Source: a virus
Reading direction: 5' to 3' (one strand)
Length of the DNA: 21,113 nt
IMG/VR virus record: IMGVR_UViG_3300034956_000058
Coordinates: 1 to 21,113 of that record
The notes beneath the pieces were generated by a model. The model searched no databases. It had not been told where the DNA came from and saw only the letters and a program-made list of their open reading frames with translations. The position numbers and the translations under genes are program-made. Positions 5,311-13,106 of the stretch are shown here, piece by piece; positions within the stretch are counted from its first letter, which is position 1, and each line of letters opens with the position of its first letter.

Positions 5311-5637
5311 TTATTTTCCTTCAACGATTGATTCCAATTTACCTTTATAAGCCTGAATCTTAGCAACTCGATCTGGCCAGTAGATTGTCGATTTCTCAGA
5401 GTTCTTACAAAGATTATCTAAGAATGGTGTGATAGATTTATATAGAAGTTCTAGCCTATATTCAAGATCATCAGCAGCGAGTTTAGAATCAGTTAATTGA
5501 TCTTCTAACGTATTCTTCTCGCTGTTGATATTCTCAATCGCGTCCTTGGCCGCAGCTTCTTTTTCTTGAAGCTCTTCATCAATGAAGCTGAAGCCAAAGT
5601 CGAAATCTAAAACCTCTTCATAGGTTTTATTAACCAT
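5311..5637 (-). CDS. Small conserved coiled-coil protein between gp32 and UvsX
   Basis: 108 residues. The first 20 are acidic and aromatic (DFDFGFSFIDEE), residues about 22-75 form a charged heptad-like coiled coil (NTLEDQLTDSKLAADDLEYRL), and the end contains IYWPDRVAKI. Proteins of this shape are found next to uvsX in T4-like marine phages, but I know of no assigned role. The start overlaps the end of gp32 by eight bases and the stop is three bases before uvsX, so it is made with both single-strand-DNA proteins; a role at the replication fork is inference from this position alone. Confidence 0.8.
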   Translation of the reverse strand: MVNKTYEEVLDFDFGFSFIDEELQEKEAAAKDAIENINSEKNTLEDQLTDSKLAADDLEYRLELLYKSITPFLDNLCKNSEKSTIYWPDRVAKIQAYKGKLESIVEGK

Positions 5638-6550
5638 TCGCTAGTTCCTTGAAGATCGATAGATCATCATCGTCATCCATAGACATAGCTGTTGAAGCAG
5701 CTGGAATTGCATCAGGCAAAGTTGGCGTTGGGGCCGCGGTTGATTGATTACCCATGCTGCTGAGATCAAACTCGTCATTTTCTGCTGTTGCTGGAGTTGA
5801 AGCTTCTTCACCAAGTGCAAGTACACGATAAAGTTTTGCTTTTAATTCAGCGTATGACTTGAAGTTTTTAGGATCAATAAGTTCTTGCAAAGAATGCTCT
5901 TCGTTGTAGATACGTTCTAGTTCACCATCATCTTCAGAGACCGGCGAAGGACCATCGAATTCTGATTTGTCGTAGTTAGGATAACCTTCGAACTTACGAA
6001 TTTTAAGACGGAAGTTAGCACCTTCCCATAGATCGAATGGGTTAACTGGTGTTTCATCTTCAAACTGAGGATTCATAAGATCATTCAATTTATCAAAGAT
6101 TTTCTTACCGTATTGATACATAAAGACTTTACCATCGTTTTCTGGATTAGCAGAATCTTTAATAACAAGAATGTTAGAGAAGTATTTCAAACGGCGTTTT
6201 TGCTTACGTGCAATTTCTTTATCAGACTCAACGCCTGAATTCCACAACTTACCATTGAATTCAGAGACTGGATCGTCTTGATTAATAGTTGTTAGGGAGT
6301 TTTCGATGTACCATTGTCCAGTTGGACCTTGGAAACCGTGATCCCACACACGTACGAAAGGCATTTCTTCACCGGCTGCTGCTGGTAGGAAACGAATAAT
6401 GGCAAAGCCGTTACCAGCTTTATCGCGGGTAGCTTTCCACATTTTACCTTCATTGGGATCTGAGTAGCTCTTAGTTGAGATTTTTTCGAGCTGAGTGTTC
6501 AATTTTGTTAGAGAAGCTGAACGGTTCTTCTTGAGTGCGTCAAAAGACAT
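5630..6550 (-). CDS. 32: Single-stranded DNA-binding protein gp32
   Basis: 306 residues from MSFDALKK (ATG at 6550), chosen over an in-frame ATG at 6583 because AAGGAA sits seven bases before it and the N-terminus matches the basic gp32 leader (LKKNRSASLTKL), the T4 cooperativity region. The OB-fold core shows VRVWDHGFQGPTGQWYIENS. The C-terminal tail is acidic (DDDDDLSIF), like the T4 region that recruits replication partners. The protein has no cysteine at all: where T4 gp32 has its zinc-binding Cys cluster this one reads TTINQDDPVSEFNGKLWNSG. An early promoter lies inside gp59 upstream, and a late-like octamer overlaps the gp59 stop. Confidence 0.92.
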   Translation of the reverse strand: MSFDALKKNRSASLTKLNTQLEKISTKSYSDPNEGKMWKATRDKAGNGFAIIRFLPAAAGEEMPFVRVWDHGFQGPTGQWYIENSLTTINQDDPVSEFNGKLWNSGVESDKEIARKQKRRLKYFSNILVIKDSANPENDGKVFMYQYGKKIFDKLNDLMNPQFEDETPVNPFDLWEGANFRLKIRKFEGYPNYDKSEFDGPSPVSEDDGELERIYNEEHSLQELIDPKNFKSYAELKAKLYRVLALGEEASTPATAENDEFDLSSMGNQSTAAPTPTLPDAIPAASTAMSMDDDDDLSIFKELANG

Positions 6551-6625
6551 ATTTTTATTCCTTAATATTGCTGTATATAGCATGGTTATATTTGCGATGT
6601 ATGTTGTGGATTATAGCCCACCATC

Positions 6626-6633
6626 TATTTATT
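6626..6633 (-). promoter_or_regulatory. Possible late promoter octamer before gp32
   Basis: The minus strand reads AATAAATA, one mismatch from the late octamer, overlapping the gp59 stop codon and about 76 bases before the gp32 start. The distance is longer than at the clear late promoters in this window. Confidence 0.3.
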
Positions 6634-7234
6634 AGAAAAAGCGTGCTCGGATTAAATCCTTGTACTTTTTTTCGTCAATCGTCAAGAAAGGTTTGTACTT
6701 ACTTGATAGTCTTATTATATCACGTGCTACGATTTTGTCAACTACTTCTTTGTCCCAATAGGGAAAAATATTTGCAATACCTGCCATGATACTAAACGTT
6801 TCAAGACTAATCTTCTTCTGCATGTACATAGTCATAATAAAAGGATGTCCACCATTTACAGAAGTAAAATTAGCTTGAAAGTTGTCGTCAAGAAGATTTA
6901 GATCTGATTTGAAAACCCGCGATAGAGTATCCATCTTGCGTTGCCAATCAACATAACGATCTTCACCTTCCTGTTCTATGATTTCACGAATCCAGATATT
7001 TGGCTTAACAATCATATTAGCCAACATTAACTGCTCTGGGTTATCTTTCCGTGAAAGCTTCTCGAAGAAGTAGGCGTCATTACGTGTTCTAAACTTATCG
7101 AACGACGCTCTAATCTTTCCGCGATATTTTATATAGTCATAACTGTCTGATGTGAAATGCTTTTTCATTGCGAGGTACTTTACATACCACTGAAAAGATT
7201 CCTCATTAGCATAACTTTCCGATGTCTTGATCAT
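6632..7234 (-). CDS. 59: Helicase loader gp59
   Basis: 200 residues (T4 gp59 217). The N-terminal helical half carries the family segment YVKYLAMKKHFTSDSYDYIK followed by KFRTRNDAYFFEKLSRKD and LMLANMIVKPNIWIREI, as in T4 gp59. It loads gp41 onto gp32-coated forked DNA. It is placed exactly as in T4, between gp33 and gp32. The start overlaps the end of gp33 by 29 bases; GGTGA sits six bases before the ATG. The coding region contains the early promoter for gp32. Confidence 0.87.
   Translation of the reverse strand: MIKTSESYANEESFQWYVKYLAMKKHFTSDSYDYIKYRGKIRASFDKFRTRNDAYFFEKLSRKDNPEQLMLANMIVKPNIWIREIIEQEGEDRYVDWQRKMDTLSRVFKSDLNLLDDNFQANFTSVNGGHPFIMTMYMQKKISLETFSIMAGIANIFPYWDKEVVDKIVARDIIRLSSKYKPFLTIDEKKYKDLIRARFF
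6714..6741 (-). promoter_or_regulatory. Consensus early promoter for gp32, inside gp59
   Basis: Minus strand: TTGACA (6741-6736), 16 bases, TATAAT (6719-6714), with GTGA directly before the -10. Both hexamers are perfect. It lies within the gp59 coding region and gives a leader of about 155 bases for gp32, allowing the binding protein to be made in excess of gp59. Confidence 0.75.
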
Positions 7235-7454
7235 CTTTAATCACCAACCTCAAATCAATAGCTTCTGCTCGTACTTTCTCTTTTAGTATAGAGGACTTCT
7301 TTACGATATCAGCAACTGTTTCAATTTCCAAATCATTGATGCGGGCATATTCTACCAATGCATCTATATAGTTTATTCCACTTGCAAGCATCTCACGAAT
7401 GTCGTGATGTACTTTTTCTGGTGTTCTTGGAGCAATCATAGCGATGTTATCCAT
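7206..7454 (-). CDS. 33: Late transcription coactivator gp33
   Basis: 82 residues (T4 gp33 112). The helical core aligns with T4: INYIDALVEYARINDLEIET matches the T4 segment with MSYLEATTAFLEENSIPET, and VRAEAIDLRLVI matches its SEAIDENLL. gp33 binds the RNA polymerase beta flap and links it to the sliding clamp at late promoters. The protein lacks the N-terminal extension of T4 and ends KDDQDIGKLC rather than in an obvious hydrophobic-acidic clamp-binding tail. It overlaps the preceding small gene by eight bases. An in-frame ATG five codons in (7439) is an alternative start. Confidence 0.75.
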   Translation of the reverse strand: MDNIAMIAPRTPEKVHHDIREMLASGINYIDALVEYARINDLEIETVADIVKKSSILKEKVRAEAIDLRLVIKDDQDIGKLC

Positions 7455-7855: not shown

Positions 7856-8539
7856 CTAATCTAACACCTCAAACAGCACGTTGTTTACATAACGATCTTT
7901 ATCTTCTTCTGATATACCCATTGCAAGGATAGATCGATGCAAATGTGGATTCATTTTCTGATTAGTACAGTACTTATTTAATATAGGTATTGTATCACGT
8001 TCTGAATGAATTGTCAACTGTTCTAGGTTATTTAAGTAGTAATCTACTAAATCATTTGTAATCGCCATAAACTGATCTAGCTCTTCACCGTCTTTAATAT
8101 TACCAACAGCAAGCATATTATCTGAAAAGATTTCTTTAGCCCAAGGTGGCAACTCACGAGGTTTGTTCCACTCTACGCCTTCAACCTTATCTCTCATATA
8201 TTCATGCATTACGTGGTCGTGACCATGAAGCGGTGAAAAGTCCATAAAGGAACCGGTGATTTTCTTAGGACCAGCTACGATATCAAATCCAAGAATAGGT
8301 AGTTCATAACCACCTTCAGGGAATATATTGATATGCATTAACCAAAGACCTTTACCATCTTCTGGTTTAATTGTTTTCAGATGGCATTTATACACTTCAT
8401 CAGAGTGCCAGAAAGTATCATTCCAACCATCAAAATGAAGATCTTCGGTGTACTTAGGGTTGTCGTAACGATGAAAATGCTTATCAAACTTATCTGATAG
8501 TGTTTGCGCGTAATCATCTAATCTATTCCAAAGTTCCAT
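7856..8539 (-). CDS. pcyX: Ferredoxin-dependent bilin reductase, PcyX-like
   Basis: 227 residues; one full FDBR domain. It aligns with cyanobacterial PcyA through LMHINIFPEGGYELPILGFD and the strand after it (residues 67-95), the FMDFSPL strand, and RELPPWAKEIFSD (128-140). Catalytic His88 and Asp105 of Synechocystis PcyA correspond to His69 and Asp86; the PcyA Glu76 position is Lys55. FDBRs reduce biliverdin IXalpha with ferredoxin electrons. PcyA needs Glu76 for reducing the 18-vinyl group, so its loss fits the phage PcyX type, which makes phycoerythrobilin. TGGAGG lies seven bases before the ATG, inside the preceding gene. It ends one operon that begins with heme oxygenase, which supplies biliverdin. 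An early promoter lies inside the gene. No ferredoxin gene is in the window. Confidence 0.88.
   Translation of the reverse strand: MELWNRLDDYAQTLSDKFDKHFHRYDNPKYTEDLHFDGWNDTFWHSDEVYKCHLKTIKPEDGKGLWLMHINIFPEGGYELPILGFDIVAGPKKITGSFMDFSPLHGHDHVMHEYMRDKVEGVEWNKPRELPPWAKEIFSDNMLAVGNIKDGEELDQFMAITNDLVDYYLNNLEQLTIHSERDTIPILNKYCTNQKMNPHLHRSILAMGISEEDKDRYVNNVLFEVLD
7989..8017 (-). promoter_or_regulatory. Early promoter inside the bilin reductase gene
   Basis: Minus strand: TTGACA (8017-8012), 17 bases ending GTGA, TACAAT (7994-7989; 5 of 6). It reads into the four-cysteine gene, the 65-residue gene, gp33 and gp59, keeping these essential genes independent of the bilin module upstream. Confidence 0.65.
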
Positions 8540-8705
8540 ATGTGCCCCTCCACTCAGGATTTATGTCAGCTTTCAATATAACTCTAAGCCGTGTTTTTGT
8601 TTCGCCATCTTTAGTAAGATACGTTTCAATCTCGTCTGTTGTTAACCATTCAGAAGTATAACAAAATACTGGAGATTTGTAACTTGGTTTTTGACGTGAT
8701 CTCAT
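8523..8705 (-). CDS. Small hypothetical protein in the bilin operon
   Basis: 60 residues, not recognised. The middle, SEWLTTDEIETYLTKDGETK, looks like a helix-turn segment followed by a strand TRLRVILKAD. The start lies two bases after the stop of the AbrB-like gene (TAACAATG) and the end overlaps the bilin reductase start by 17 bases and contains its ribosome site. Its reality rests on this tight packing; function unknown. Confidence 0.55.
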   Translation of the reverse strand: MRSRQKPSYKSPVFCYTSEWLTTDEIETYLTKDGETKTRLRVILKADINPEWRGTYGTLE

Positions 8706-8707
8706 TG

Positions 8708-8863
8708 TTACTCTACGCGAGAAAAACTACATGAACCGTCATCATTTACTATCCATTCTATATTATCACCTACTGATAAGTTTGCAGCTTTTAACAGTTC
8801 AGCAGGTAGTTCAATGTAAAGATCCCCCGAAAGGGGATCCTCATGTACAAACGTAGTGGTCAT
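8708..8863 (-). CDS. AbrB/SpoVT-like small DNA-binding protein
   Basis: 51 residues, starting MTTTFVHEDPLSGDLYIELP. The body has the swapped-hairpin AbrB pattern: a strand DLYIELPAELLKAANL, then SVGDNIEWIVNDDGSCSF (the GD turn followed by the second beta pair). Dimers of this fold bind DNA as transition-state regulators or as antitoxins; no toxin gene is adjacent. The ATG overlaps the preceding stop (ATGA) and is preceded by GGAAGA; the stop is two bases before the next start. It sits between heme oxygenase and the bilin reductase, so regulation of this operon is possible but not shown. The codons for residues 9-14 form a GC-rich hairpin. Confidence 0.72.
   Translation of the reverse strand: MTTTFVHEDPLSGDLYIELPAELLKAANLSVGDNIEWIVNDDGSCSFSRVE
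8821..8839 (-). other. GC-rich hairpin inside the AbrB-like gene
   Basis: The minus strand reads GATCCCC, TTTCG, GGGGATC, a perfect 7-bp stem with a 5-base loop, followed by CTTTACATT. It is unusually GC-rich for this DNA. It may act as an attenuator or processing site between heme oxygenase and the bilin reductase; the U-run is too short for a convincing terminator. Confidence 0.45.
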
Positions 8864-9063
8864 TTATTCTTCCGATCCCTACGGGCTTTTGCCCAAGCGT
8901 TAGTTATCTTTGTTTCAATAACACCTTTAACATTTTGGCGTTTAGCACGAGCAGTTTCTGAACGACCTCGGCGATATGCCTGTGTCATGTCTTTACTAGG
9001 CTCAGATACTGTATCATCTTCTAACTCGTCAGTGATACTTGTTTCTTCCAATTGCGCTTGCAT
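8860..9063 (-). CDS. Small basic-tailed hypothetical protein
   Basis: 67 residues, not recognised. The first 27 are acidic (TSITDELEDDTVSEPSKD), the rest strongly basic (YRRGRSETARAKRQNVKG and WAKARRDRKNK), giving a charge-split protein that could bind nucleic acid. AAGGAGA lies nine bases before the ATG. It starts 11 bases after the heme oxygenase stop and overlaps the AbrB-like gene by four (ATGA), so it is part of the bilin operon. Confidence 0.65.
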   Translation of the reverse strand: MQAQLEETSITDELEDDTVSEPSKDMTQAYRRGRSETARAKRQNVKGVIETKITNAWAKARRDRKNK

Positions 9064-9074
9064 AGAATGTCTCC

Positions 9075-9632
9075 TTACTGTTGAATGATTTCTTTAGATA
9101 GTTCATCAAATAATTCAGACGCGAAGTCAAAGCATTTTTTAGCTTCATCAGCCATATCATCACTAAGAAGCGTTCTAAATTCTTCAATAAGAACTTTAGT
9201 ATCTCCATTAAACTCGTACATTAGACCAGAGCCAGGAGTCTTCTTCTTGATAATCTGTCCGCCATGTAATTCACCAAAATGACGAACATACATATTAGCT
9301 AATAGTGCTTCATTGTTATCAGATGCTTTTAATGCGTCGACGTGGGCAATATACTTATCTACAGACTCTGGATATTCGCCTGGAGGTTCAAAGCCAAACA
9401 ATTCTTCAAGCTCACGAATGTCTTGGAAAATACGAGGTGCTCGATGAATAGCGATAAGATTAGGTGGGATGATTGTAACACGCTCAAGTACCTTGTATGC
9501 AAGATACTGACAACATAGGAATTTGTGATATAGCTTTGGTTCGATGTTGCCTGAGATAAGCTCTTTAGCAAACAACCTACGCTCGGCAGATTGATGATGT
9601 GCCCAAGTAAGTTCTTTTAGTTTGTTCGACAT
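9075..9632 (-). CDS. ho1: Heme oxygenase (biliverdin-producing)
   Basis: 185 residues from MSNKLKEL (ATG at 9632), preferred over an in-frame ATG at 9650 because GGAG lies seven bases before it. The all-helical heme oxygenase pattern is clear: proximal heme ligand His13 in AHHQSAE (HTMAE in cyanobacterial HO1), and the distal helix HFGELHGGQII at 118-128, matching the GDLSGGQ motif. It opens heme to biliverdin, CO and iron with ferredoxin electrons. The catalytic Asp of that motif (Asp140 of human HO-1) is Glu121 here and the following Ser is His123, both unusual. A perfect late octamer is 31 bases upstream. It is the first gene of the unit that ends with the bilin reductase. Confidence 0.88.
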   Translation of the reverse strand: MSNKLKELTWAHHQSAERRLFAKELISGNIEPKLYHKFLCCQYLAYKVLERVTIIPPNLIAIHRAPRIFQDIRELEELFGFEPPGEYPESVDKYIAHVDALKASDNNEALLANMYVRHFGELHGGQIIKKKTPGSGLMYEFNGDTKVLIEEFRTLLSDDMADEAKKCFDFASELFDELSKEIIQQ

Positions 9633-9662
9633 AATATACTCCGTTTTCATGTCCCATAAATT

Positions 9663-9681: not shown

Positions 9682-9807
9682 TTAATCTTCGGCAATCCAC
9701 ACATTGATAGTAACCATCTTACCGTTGTGTTCTTTAAAAACTGCATAGTCTAGCCCTGCTTTATGTAATGCTTTTTGCAGGGCTATCATTTTAGGTGTTT
9801 TAATCAT
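9682..9807 (-). CDS. 41-residue hypothetical protein coupled to the MazG-like gene
   Basis: The ATG overlaps the stop of the MazG-like gene (TAATG). The 41 residues begin MIKTPKMIALQKALHKAG and end MVTINVWIAED, a helix followed by a beta strand pair. It is too short to assign. Its support is the overlap, and the fact that its stop comes just before the late promoter of the bilin unit. Confidence 0.5.
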   Translation of the reverse strand: MIKTPKMIALQKALHKAGLDYAVFKEHNGKMVTINVWIAED

Positions 9808-10271
9808 TACAAAGACTTTCTTAATTCACCGTGGTTGCCTTCGTGATTAGGTGCTACCCACCCCACCGGTTTGATAAGGTCTGGTAAACCGAACTTGTTA
9901 GGACGACCTTCTTTAACTCCGACGCTTTTGACCATGTTAGCTTCCAACACTCTATTCCAAGCAGAGTTAGCATCAACACCAAATACATCGAGAGTACCAA
10001 TAGCAAAAACACACATGTCGATAAGACCATCCACGATTTCTTCAGGATCTGTTTTAGCGACATCGCCCACGAACTCATACTTACCATCTTCATTAACAAC
10101 CAAGTCCATATCAGCAGCTTCTGCAGTTTCAAGTAACTCCTCCAAACACATGTTCATACGGAAAGTAAGATACTTCGCCATAAGTTCTGTGTCGCCCTTA
10201 TTGGTTTCAAACCAATCCTTAACACCAAACTTGTTGTGCATGTTTGTAATGTCATTAGCCCAATCGCTCAT
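9807..10271 (-). CDS. MazG-like nucleotide pyrophosphohydrolase
   Basis: 154 residues with the all-alpha NTP pyrophosphatase core: helix MCLEELLETAEA with Glu44, Glu45 and Glu48, then PEEIVDGLIDMCVFAIGTLD with Glu78, Asp81 and Asp85, then EANMVKSVGVKEGR (Asn112, Lys115). The E-x-x-E and E-x-x-D pairs would hold the magnesium. The same kind is common in marine phages, where it is proposed to hydrolyse non-canonical dNTPs or alarmones; the substrate cannot be read from sequence. The C-terminal tail (WVAPNHEGNHGELRKSL) is extra. A consensus early promoter lies just upstream and the 41-residue gene is coupled downstream. Confidence 0.8.
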   Translation of the reverse strand: MSDWANDITNMHNKFGVKDWFETNKGDTELMAKYLTFRMNMCLEELLETAEAADMDLVVNEDGKYEFVGDVAKTDPEEIVDGLIDMCVFAIGTLDVFGVDANSAWNRVLEANMVKSVGVKEGRPNKFGLPDLIKPVGWVAPNHEGNHGELRKSL

Positions 10272-10559: not shown

Positions 10560-13106
10560 TTATACAAAGAAATCATCTAGTGTTGCAATCTTTACCCCAG
10601 ACCAACCAACAGCTTCAAGTATAGCTTGCAGAGGACTTAGGAATACTTTTTCGAATTGTTTTTCGTAGTCAATAAAATCATGTAATCCAAATTCAGCTGG
10701 TAGTACACCTGGAAACGATATAATGTTTTCTTTGATTGGATTAGGGGTTTTAAGATAAACGTACTTGATCTTGTCGCCGCCAGATACTAGTGATAATTTC
10801 TTACTTAGACCGTGAGCATCTAGATAGTGGTTATATAGGATACAGCCACGAACGTGCATTGGGCAACCTTTCTTATACATGTTACCATTACCACGTTCAC
10901 GATACTTATCAATGTTATCAGTACCAGAGTTGCGACCGATAGCTTCAGGTGGCAAACTGTAGAACTCTTGGCGGAAAGTTTCAATAAACTCTTGAACTGC
11001 AGCTTCATCACCATTCATAATAACATCGAATGAACCACGTAGCTTATCACGACAAACTTCTGGAGTAGATGAACGAACTGATTCAAGACCGGTTACTGAG
11101 ATCTTAGGCTTATCATAGTGAACACCTTCAGAGTTGAGTGTATTCATAATGTAACGCTTCTTAGCAATGAACACTGTTTTATCAGTAATCTTTTCGCGTT
11201 TCATTACCATAGCTTGGCGATATGCACCCATGTCAGATGCAAGCTTAATATAACCATTTTCAATGACTTCTTCAATCTTAAGCTGGCATACTTTATCGAG
11301 ATACTCTTCACCTTGCTTACGAGTAACGTCAGTGGTACCAAAACCTTGTTGAACGAATGGAGCCATGTCAACATAGATTGAATCGGTATCAATATAGATG
11401 ATATAGTCTTTATCAGTCTTTAGGATCCTGTTCATATAATCATTAACAGACTTTTGTGCATATCGAATTGATAGCTGGCCTGACGTTGTAATTGCTTCAG
11501 CCATGTCGTTAATATAGTACAAGAAGTAAATATTAGCGGTAGCACCATACAACGAGTTCATGGCAATTTTGATGGCCATTTGCTGGTTATGAAGGTTATT
11601 AGCTTCACGTTTAAGTGCTGCTTTTTCAACAGGATCAGTTGCATTTTCAAGTTCTTGTTCTACACCAAGCATCTTCTTCTTAATAATAGAACGATTACCG
11701 TAGTATTCATCGATTATTGAAGGAATAACACCTTTGAATTCATTAGTAAAACATGCACCGTTAGCTGCAACTGAAATAGTCTTATCATCGTTTTTAAACT
11801 TGCCTTCGAGTACCATGTCTTGTGAAACATATTCACGACGGTCTTCAATGTAAGTTTCTGGTGACATGTTATATTGCAACATTAAGTGTGGATATAGAGA
11901 GTTAAGATCGAATGATACAACCCAAGGATGCATGCCAACTTTTGGATCCTTAACATAACCACCCACAAGATCACCTGCTCGTGCACCTGGACCTTCTTTA
12001 AGGGGTGGAACAGTACCTTCAGCGATTAGTTTACGATAGAGGGTTGTTTCCCAAATGCCAACAGTACCAAAGGCATCATTGTAGTTTACACCACCGCCAT
12101 AAGCAACAGTCATAACTAGAGATAGCAGACCTGTTTCATCTTCAAAGCGCTGAATGAGCCACGTATCTTTAAGGTTATAATCGAGATAGAGTTGTGGATT
12201 TTGCTCGTAAAGTGCAGTAAGACTGCCATACTCAGAGTAATCAAGTTTTGCTTCACCGAGTACAACGTTAGCAATATGATCGAGCTTCCATGATTCCTGT
12301 GGGCCATACTTAAAGCCAAACTTCTTGAAAACATCCATGTAATCGACTACAGCAACACCAGAGATTTCATATGTTTGTTGCATCTTACCAAAGAATTCAC
12401 GACCTGTTTGACGAATAGTGCGCCAAGGAGATAAGTCTTTAGCAAACTCGTCACCGAACAAAGAATTCATACGTGTAATAATGTATTGAATATCGAAGTA
12501 AGCTACGTTCCAGCCAGTAACAATATCCGGATAATCATTCATCCATAGTTGTTTAAAGCGACGCAGCAGCGCTTCTTCAGTATCAAACTTCATGAAGTGA
12601 ATGTTATCTGGATCAATATCAAGCAGAGTCTTAGACTTGTCGTAATCTTTACGACCAAGCAGGTGGTAATCATTAGACTTTGAAGACTTATAAGCGATAG
12701 AGGTAATTTCTTTATCAGCGAGATTCATATCTGGATAACCGTCAGAAATATCAACCTCGATATCAAATGACGCGATATTAATTTTAGTAATATCAAACTC
12801 TACTTTGTTTGGATATTTTTCTTGAATGAACTGTGCAACATAGTTTGTACTACCAGCAATTTGCATACCGTGTACATCTTTATATTGTTCAATCCAATCT
12901 TTAGCTTCTCGCATTGTATCCATTTTGATAGGAGACAAAGGACGACCGTTTACCAGAGACTTGTACTGAGTTTCAGTATCTTTTTTGCCACTAATAAAGA
13001 GTGTAGGAGAATATTTTACTTTGCGTTCAAAACGCTTACCATTCTCGTAGCCACGCCACAAGATACTGTTTGCATACCGCTCAACGGATGTGTAAAAACT
13101 AGACAT
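10560..13106 (-). CDS. 43: DNA polymerase gp43 (family B)
   Basis: 848 residues (T4 898). Exonuclease motifs: ASFDIEVDI with Asp115 and Glu117, GWNVAYFDIQYI with Asp205, and YNLKDTWLI near 310-318. Polymerase motifs: A VSFDLNSLYPHLM with Asp400, B KIAMNSLYGA at 513-522, C YIDTDSIYV with the Asp-Thr-Asp at 573-575. Both proofreading and polymerase sites look intact, with no intein or intron. The C-terminus LDDFFV fits the hydrophobic-acidic sliding-clamp motif of T4-like polymerases. An early promoter lies just upstream. A small coiled-coil gene follows in the same transcript. Confidence 0.96.
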   Translation of the reverse strand: MSSFYTSVERYANSILWRGYENGKRFERKVKYSPTLFISGKKDTETQYKSLVNGRPLSPIKMDTMREAKDWIEQYKDVHGMQIAGSTNYVAQFIQEKYPNKVEFDITKINIASFDIEVDISDGYPDMNLADKEITSIAYKSSKSNDYHLLGRKDYDKSKTLLDIDPDNIHFMKFDTEEALLRRFKQLWMNDYPDIVTGWNVAYFDIQYIITRMNSLFGDEFAKDLSPWRTIRQTGREFFGKMQQTYEISGVAVVDYMDVFKKFGFKYGPQESWKLDHIANVVLGEAKLDYSEYGSLTALYEQNPQLYLDYNLKDTWLIQRFEDETGLLSLVMTVAYGGGVNYNDAFGTVGIWETTLYRKLIAEGTVPPLKEGPGARAGDLVGGYVKDPKVGMHPWVVSFDLNSLYPHLMLQYNMSPETYIEDRREYVSQDMVLEGKFKNDDKTISVAANGACFTNEFKGVIPSIIDEYYGNRSIIKKKMLGVEQELENATDPVEKAALKREANNLHNQQMAIKIAMNSLYGATANIYFLYYINDMAEAITTSGQLSIRYAQKSVNDYMNRILKTDKDYIIYIDTDSIYVDMAPFVQQGFGTTDVTRKQGEEYLDKVCQLKIEEVIENGYIKLASDMGAYRQAMVMKREKITDKTVFIAKKRYIMNTLNSEGVHYDKPKISVTGLESVRSSTPEVCRDKLRGSFDVIMNGDEAAVQEFIETFRQEFYSLPPEAIGRNSGTDNIDKYRERGNGNMYKKGCPMHVRGCILYNHYLDAHGLSKKLSLVSGGDKIKYVYLKTPNPIKENIISFPGVLPAEFGLHDFIDYEKQFEKVFLSPLQAILEAVGWSGVKIATLDDFFV

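Follow-up and report, generated by a model that had tools for sequence, protein, structure and literature searches.

A lineage of T4-like phages, most likely infecting marine Alphaproteobacteria, carries a heme oxygenase (HO) gene and a ferredoxin-dependent bilin reductase (FDBR) gene as fixed components of its replication locus. We infer that the two enzymes constitute a pathway from heme to a reduced bilin, with driven heme turnover as the favoured role, and we lean towards this reading as a whole.

The window, that is, the whole stretch of DNA analysed, comprises the 21,113 bases of a viral record and represents a fragment, so that larger relatives were searched for the remaining genes. Its minus strand encodes a T4-like replication locus, delineated from the list of open reading frames (ORFs) and by profile and tblastn searches, which includes gp43, MazG, gp33, gp59, gp32, UvsX and gp41. 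UvsX and gp41 also lie downstream of the bilin unit; the unit and its immediate flanks consist of the following features.

10560..13106, minus strand: gp43 DNA polymerase, upstream flank (tblastn to T4-like phages, about 42% identity)
9807..10271, minus strand: MazG-like nucleotide pyrophosphohydrolase, upstream flank (phrog_671, E=2.8e-20)
9075..9632, minus strand: heme oxygenase, 185 aa (PF01126, E=1.9e-19; an alternative ATG start at 9650 is possible)
8860..9063, minus strand: small ORF, 67 aa (tblastn synteny, recurring in many relatives; weak VbhA match below the cut-off)
8708..8863, minus strand: small AbrB/MazE-fold-like protein, 51 aa (PF04014, E=6.1e-5, just below the cut-off; phrog_661, E=6.9e-7; recurs in relatives)
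8523..8705, minus strand: small ORF, 60 aa (ORF list; 17-base overlap with the FDBR start; found in a minority of relatives)
7856..8539, minus strand: ferredoxin-dependent bilin reductase (PF05996, E=2.2e-18; 5owg, E=1.1e-36)
7206..7454, minus strand: gp33-like late transcription regulator, downstream flank (phrog_254, E=9.1e-11)
6632..7234, minus strand: gp59 helicase loader, downstream flank (phrog_269, E=1.5e-49)
5630..6583, minus strand: gp32 single-strand DNA binding protein, downstream flank (phrog_224, E=3.7e-115)

HO and FDBR thus bound a compact unit at 7856-9632, between gp43-mazG and gp33-gp59-gp32. Three small ORFs of 60, 51 and 67 aa separate them, and neighbouring frames overlap or lie apart by no more than about 17 bases. 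This is the arrangement described in the sequence-only reading, the coordinates of which are correct, and both profile matches exceed their cut-offs. A promoter scan yielded a site count no higher than in shuffles.

The same arrangement is found throughout the lineage. In tblastn comparisons of the window proteins with related loci, HO and FDBR occur together at this location, in most cases on either side of the 67 aa and AbrB-like ORFs; because both recur at this position in related viral contigs, the pairing is not due to chance. When loci were anchored independently of the bilin genes, via gp59 and via an ORF adjacent to gp32, both genes were present in 35/35 and 38/38 loci with enough upstream sequence, in two sets that share contigs and with anchors that reach fairly close relatives only. 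This presence in every adequately covered locus of two independently chosen samples is new here, and since the pair is universal in the tested loci of one lineage, the benefit it confers must be general. HO accompanies FDBR in 216 of 236 FDBR loci; the sequence of most of the remaining 20 ends just upstream of FDBR, and 5 of the 20 are pcyA loci of cyanophages. The expectation from the first scans (14 vs 140 loci) that HO would be far commoner than FDBR was rejected, the synteny indicating that the two travel together. Relatives of the broader FDBR alignment are encoded on at least 590 viral contigs, a count in which this lineage and PcyX phages are mixed. A dN/dS of about 0.05-0.09, at nearly saturated dS, indicates purifying selection. 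Between relatives, HO and FDBR show somewhat higher synonymous divergence than the genes flanking the 7856-9632 unit, so allele exchange is possible; the idea of a recombined block, suggested by one pair, was reduced to a modest trend over 541 pairs.

The assignment of the upstream gene to the HO family is firm (PF01126, 70.8 bits; cut-off 23), with solved heme oxygenases as distant matches only (best E 5e-11) and a homologue in the pelagiphage Mosig EXVC030M at 36% identity. Conserved positions are the proximal His13 (human HO-1 His25), Tyr115, Arg117, Gly120, Gly124, Gly125 and Arg153. At the site of human HO-1 Asp140 the window protein has Glu121, as do most members of the lineage (Glu in 105/126 sequences, Asp in 21/126); the His25 and Asp140 equivalences refer to what we take to be the human HO-1 sequence. 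The protein would be expected to convert heme to biliverdin.

The downstream gene encodes a member of the FDBR family (PF05996, 67.2 bits against a cut-off of 31), the best solved relative of which is PcyX_EBK42635 (5owg). The AF2 model (pLDDT 92.2) retrieves PcyA-biliverdin complexes as the best Foldseek matches (E 8e-13, TM 0.76) and also matches the PcyX structure 5owg. Both catalytic residues of the PcyA/PcyX branch, Asp and His, are present: His69 and Asp86 (PcyA His88 and Asp105) are invariant in all 161 aligned FDBRs that have those columns. Loss of the heme or bilin pocket residues, which the sequence-only reading had named as an outcome that would undermine it, is not observed for the core residues, which are kept in both proteins (the proximal His and glycines in HO, His69 and Asp86 in FDBR). 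Position 55 (PcyA Glu76), by contrast, is split across 161 sequences into Lys (82), Asp (73) and Glu (6), with Lys in all 82 distinct lineage FDBRs that have the column, Asp in every PcyX compared and Glu in every PcyA compared. In a 2018 study of PcyX, that Asp was reportedly dispensable for catalysis and the Asp-His pair critical. The use of Asp55 as a marker for all PEB synthases was dropped, the aligned residue in P-SSM2 PebS being His. In PcyA, Glu76 is required for 18-vinyl reduction and is specific to this enzyme, missing in PcyX and pre-PcyA (PMC10151467), and Asp55 is PcyX-specific (PMC11480375). Accordingly, the earlier label of a PcyA/PcyX-type reductase is too loose: the window FDBR departs from PcyA in having Lys55 instead of Glu76 and in scoring 97.7 bits against the NF002760 cut-off of 206, and it differs from PcyX in the residue at 55 and in its placement outside the PcyX clade.

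In a quick maximum-likelihood tree, the Lys, Asp and Glu groups each form one clade, with the Lys clade (SH-aLRT 98) sister to the PcyX clade, under a root that the long branches to PcyA and PebS make less sure. The window FDBR thus belongs to a clade of its own beside PcyX, marked by Lys55, and this too is new here. Besides 5owg and Mosig, the Asp group takes in many other phages, among them one represented by a phage-like contig of 335 kb in a Neomarinimicrobiota metagenome-assembled genome (MAG). On this contig, a nitrilase-like ORF stands between HO and an Asp-type PcyX, all three in a row (L097:8387-10684), clpS- and Hsp20-like ORFs, read from translations, precede HO, and the contig has its own tmRNA. 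FDBR-like matches also occurred in two other alphaproteobacterial genomes and were set aside; the one that is fully readable is a divergent protein without the Asp-His pair.

Judged from the residues, activity of the FDBR with Lys55 is plausible. Phycocyanobilin (PCB) is an unlikely product because the enzyme lacks Glu76 but retains the Asp-His pair; the product would probably be phycoerythrobilin, phytochromobilin or a dihydrobiliverdin. The pocket Lys might also alter or impair activity. Tentatively, the Lys55 FDBRs could represent a distinct enzyme class with its own product or regiochemistry and with a function other than light capture in phages of bacteria without phycobilisomes. The Lys/Asp/Glu split at a single pocket position offers a direct biochemical handle on FDBR product choice.

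The remainder of the genome was surveyed in 15 related records, three of which are 183-221 kb long and have about 130 genes in common; one large relative (G003, 201 kb) has 24 tRNA genes in a single cluster (L180:9121-17978). No psbA was found in these 15 records, including the three large ones, in agreement with the earlier observation that no photosynthesis gene accompanies the pair. The genome-wide search for ferredoxin and phytochrome genes that had been proposed found neither (Fer2, PHY) in the same records, nor was GAF detected. No phycobiliprotein gene with support was found there either, the one sub-threshold phycobilisome-family match falling in a 3,674 aa frame. The gene for 5-aminolevulinate synthase (AlaS), not present in the 21 kb window, occurs in most large relatives. 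It was identified in 9 of 26 records searched, of which one is MAG G017 and the other eight are phage records belonging to the lineage. Among lineage records that reach at least 30 kb beyond FDBR, 8/10 encode AlaS, so the broken HO/FDBR/AlaS cassette already known (PMC11480375) is usual here; AlaS is absent from a large record (G002) and a divergent one (G012).

The host is very probably an alphaproteobacterium and, by a slight lean, a member of Rhodobacterales. In 24 of 45 loci of the lineage, the interval from mazG to HO holds a permuted tmRNA that matches the alphaproteobacterial model (for example, L104:7993-8345, L119:7713-8191 and L165:9731-10119), with an atypical tag in 2 of the 24; the window has none. 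The type of this tmRNA in the relatives suggests the host class. Some tags, for example ANANRAPKMALAA, are similar to those of Rhodobacteraceae (such as ANDNKAPAMALAA), and others (ANDNFAPSGYALAA) are less similar. A gene for a DUF1127 protein is located at 184-471 of the window, near T4-like genes (PF06568, E=8e-11). MAG binning is mixed, with three relatives in a Rhodobacteraceae MAG and one in a Bacteroidetes MAG, the latter counting against a firm host assignment. With the phage-bearing bin set aside, none of 198 genomes of this candidate host family, Rhodobacteraceae, contains FDBR.

In the mechanism that we propose, HO would open heme to yield biliverdin IXalpha, Fe2+ and CO, and FDBR would then reduce biliverdin with electrons from host ferredoxin, the presumed donor because the search of the phages yielded no gene for ferredoxin. 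FDBR would act as a sink that clears biliverdin so that HO keeps running, and the AlaS of most relatives could let the infected cell make bilin de novo. The two-step module of the sequence-only reading, in a phage whose host probably lacks phycobilisomes, is supported by the protein families and residues described above. The purpose of bilins in phages of such bacteria has been called 'still enigmatic' (PMC11480375). Light capture is an unlikely role because no photoreceptor or antenna protein of the phages was found.

We favour driven heme turnover over provision of a ligand for a photoreceptor or other host protein. Several points count against the main reading as a whole: co-expression of phage HemO and FDBR in E. 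coli left porphyrin accumulation unrelieved (PMC11480375), most of the lineage has Glu at the HO-1 Asp140 site, one relative is binned with Bacteroidetes, and the genes show no evident use for the bilin. It is possible, if rather unlikely, that the reduced bilin itself is the wanted product, as ligand or chromophore of a host bilin-binding protein, for example, a re-tuned or disabled host bacteriophytochrome. AlaS suggests net bilin synthesis, HO and FDBR are co-conserved, and the PcyA of freshwater phage CB_2 could charge a phytochrome in E. coli (PMC11480375); a PHY domain occurs in 31/199 candidate host-family genomes but is missing from most, and the phages lack both PHY and GAF. The universal pairing of HO with FDBR says that the FDBR step matters. 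We consider it unlikely that HO serves to free iron from host heme, with FDBR merely disposing of biliverdin. Iron liberation is established heme oxygenase chemistry, the literature discusses it for nutrient-poor waters (PMC11480375), and HO, searched for with PF01126 alone, occurs in just 3/198 candidate host-family genomes other than G016; AlaS, however, present in most relatives with enough sequence, would pull iron back into new heme. AlaS thus suggests flux through new heme and weakens pure iron salvage, which the sequence-only reading had listed among its options and which stays among the readings in this weakened form.

As a kind, the HO-FDBR pair is not new, because hemO with pcyX or pcyA has already been published for non-cyanobacterial phages, the pelagiphage Mosig and a freshwater phage (Wegner et al. 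2024, PMC11480375). New here, besides the fixed presence and the Lys55 clade, are the high share of relatives with AlaS, the negative survey for photosynthesis, photoreceptor and ferredoxin genes, and the alphaproteobacterial-type tmRNA of the relatives. The vhemO/vpcyA-X/valaS sets unite HO, FDBR and AlaS in phages that infect bacteria other than cyanobacteria, with AlaS apart in a 'broken cassette' (PMC11480375), but the window has small ORFs between HO and FDBR; in CB_2, compared by its published description, the FDBR is a functional PcyA that makes PCB (PMC11480375). That the window carries ordinary cyanophage pigment genes, supporting the phycobilisome of a cyanobacterial host, is very improbable: cyanophages are among the matches of gp32 and gp43, and cyanophages (P-SSM4, P-RSM6 and others) do carry FDBR-family genes, but both window enzymes are distant from pcyA/pebS of these phages (about 24-31% identity for FDBR), which have no HO in the 1.5 kb flanks seen and the pcyA products of which have Glu at position 55. 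The missing psbA, the alpha-type tmRNA and the DUF1127 gene also stand against a cyanobacterial host. Transfer of the PcyX cassette of Mosig, making this a pelagiphage (SAR11) module, is improbable. SAR11 belongs to the alphaproteobacteria, and Mosig is a T4-like marine phage with both enzyme families and the Asp-His pair; its proteins, however, are 33-36% identical to those of the window, its HO and PcyX are adjacent beside neck genes rather than between gp43 and gp33, and its FDBR, like 5owg, has Asp at position 55 and falls in a separate clade. Four genes for putative 2OG-Fe(II) oxygenases and one for a putative ferrochelatase lie ahead of HO in Mosig (L016:10596-15011).
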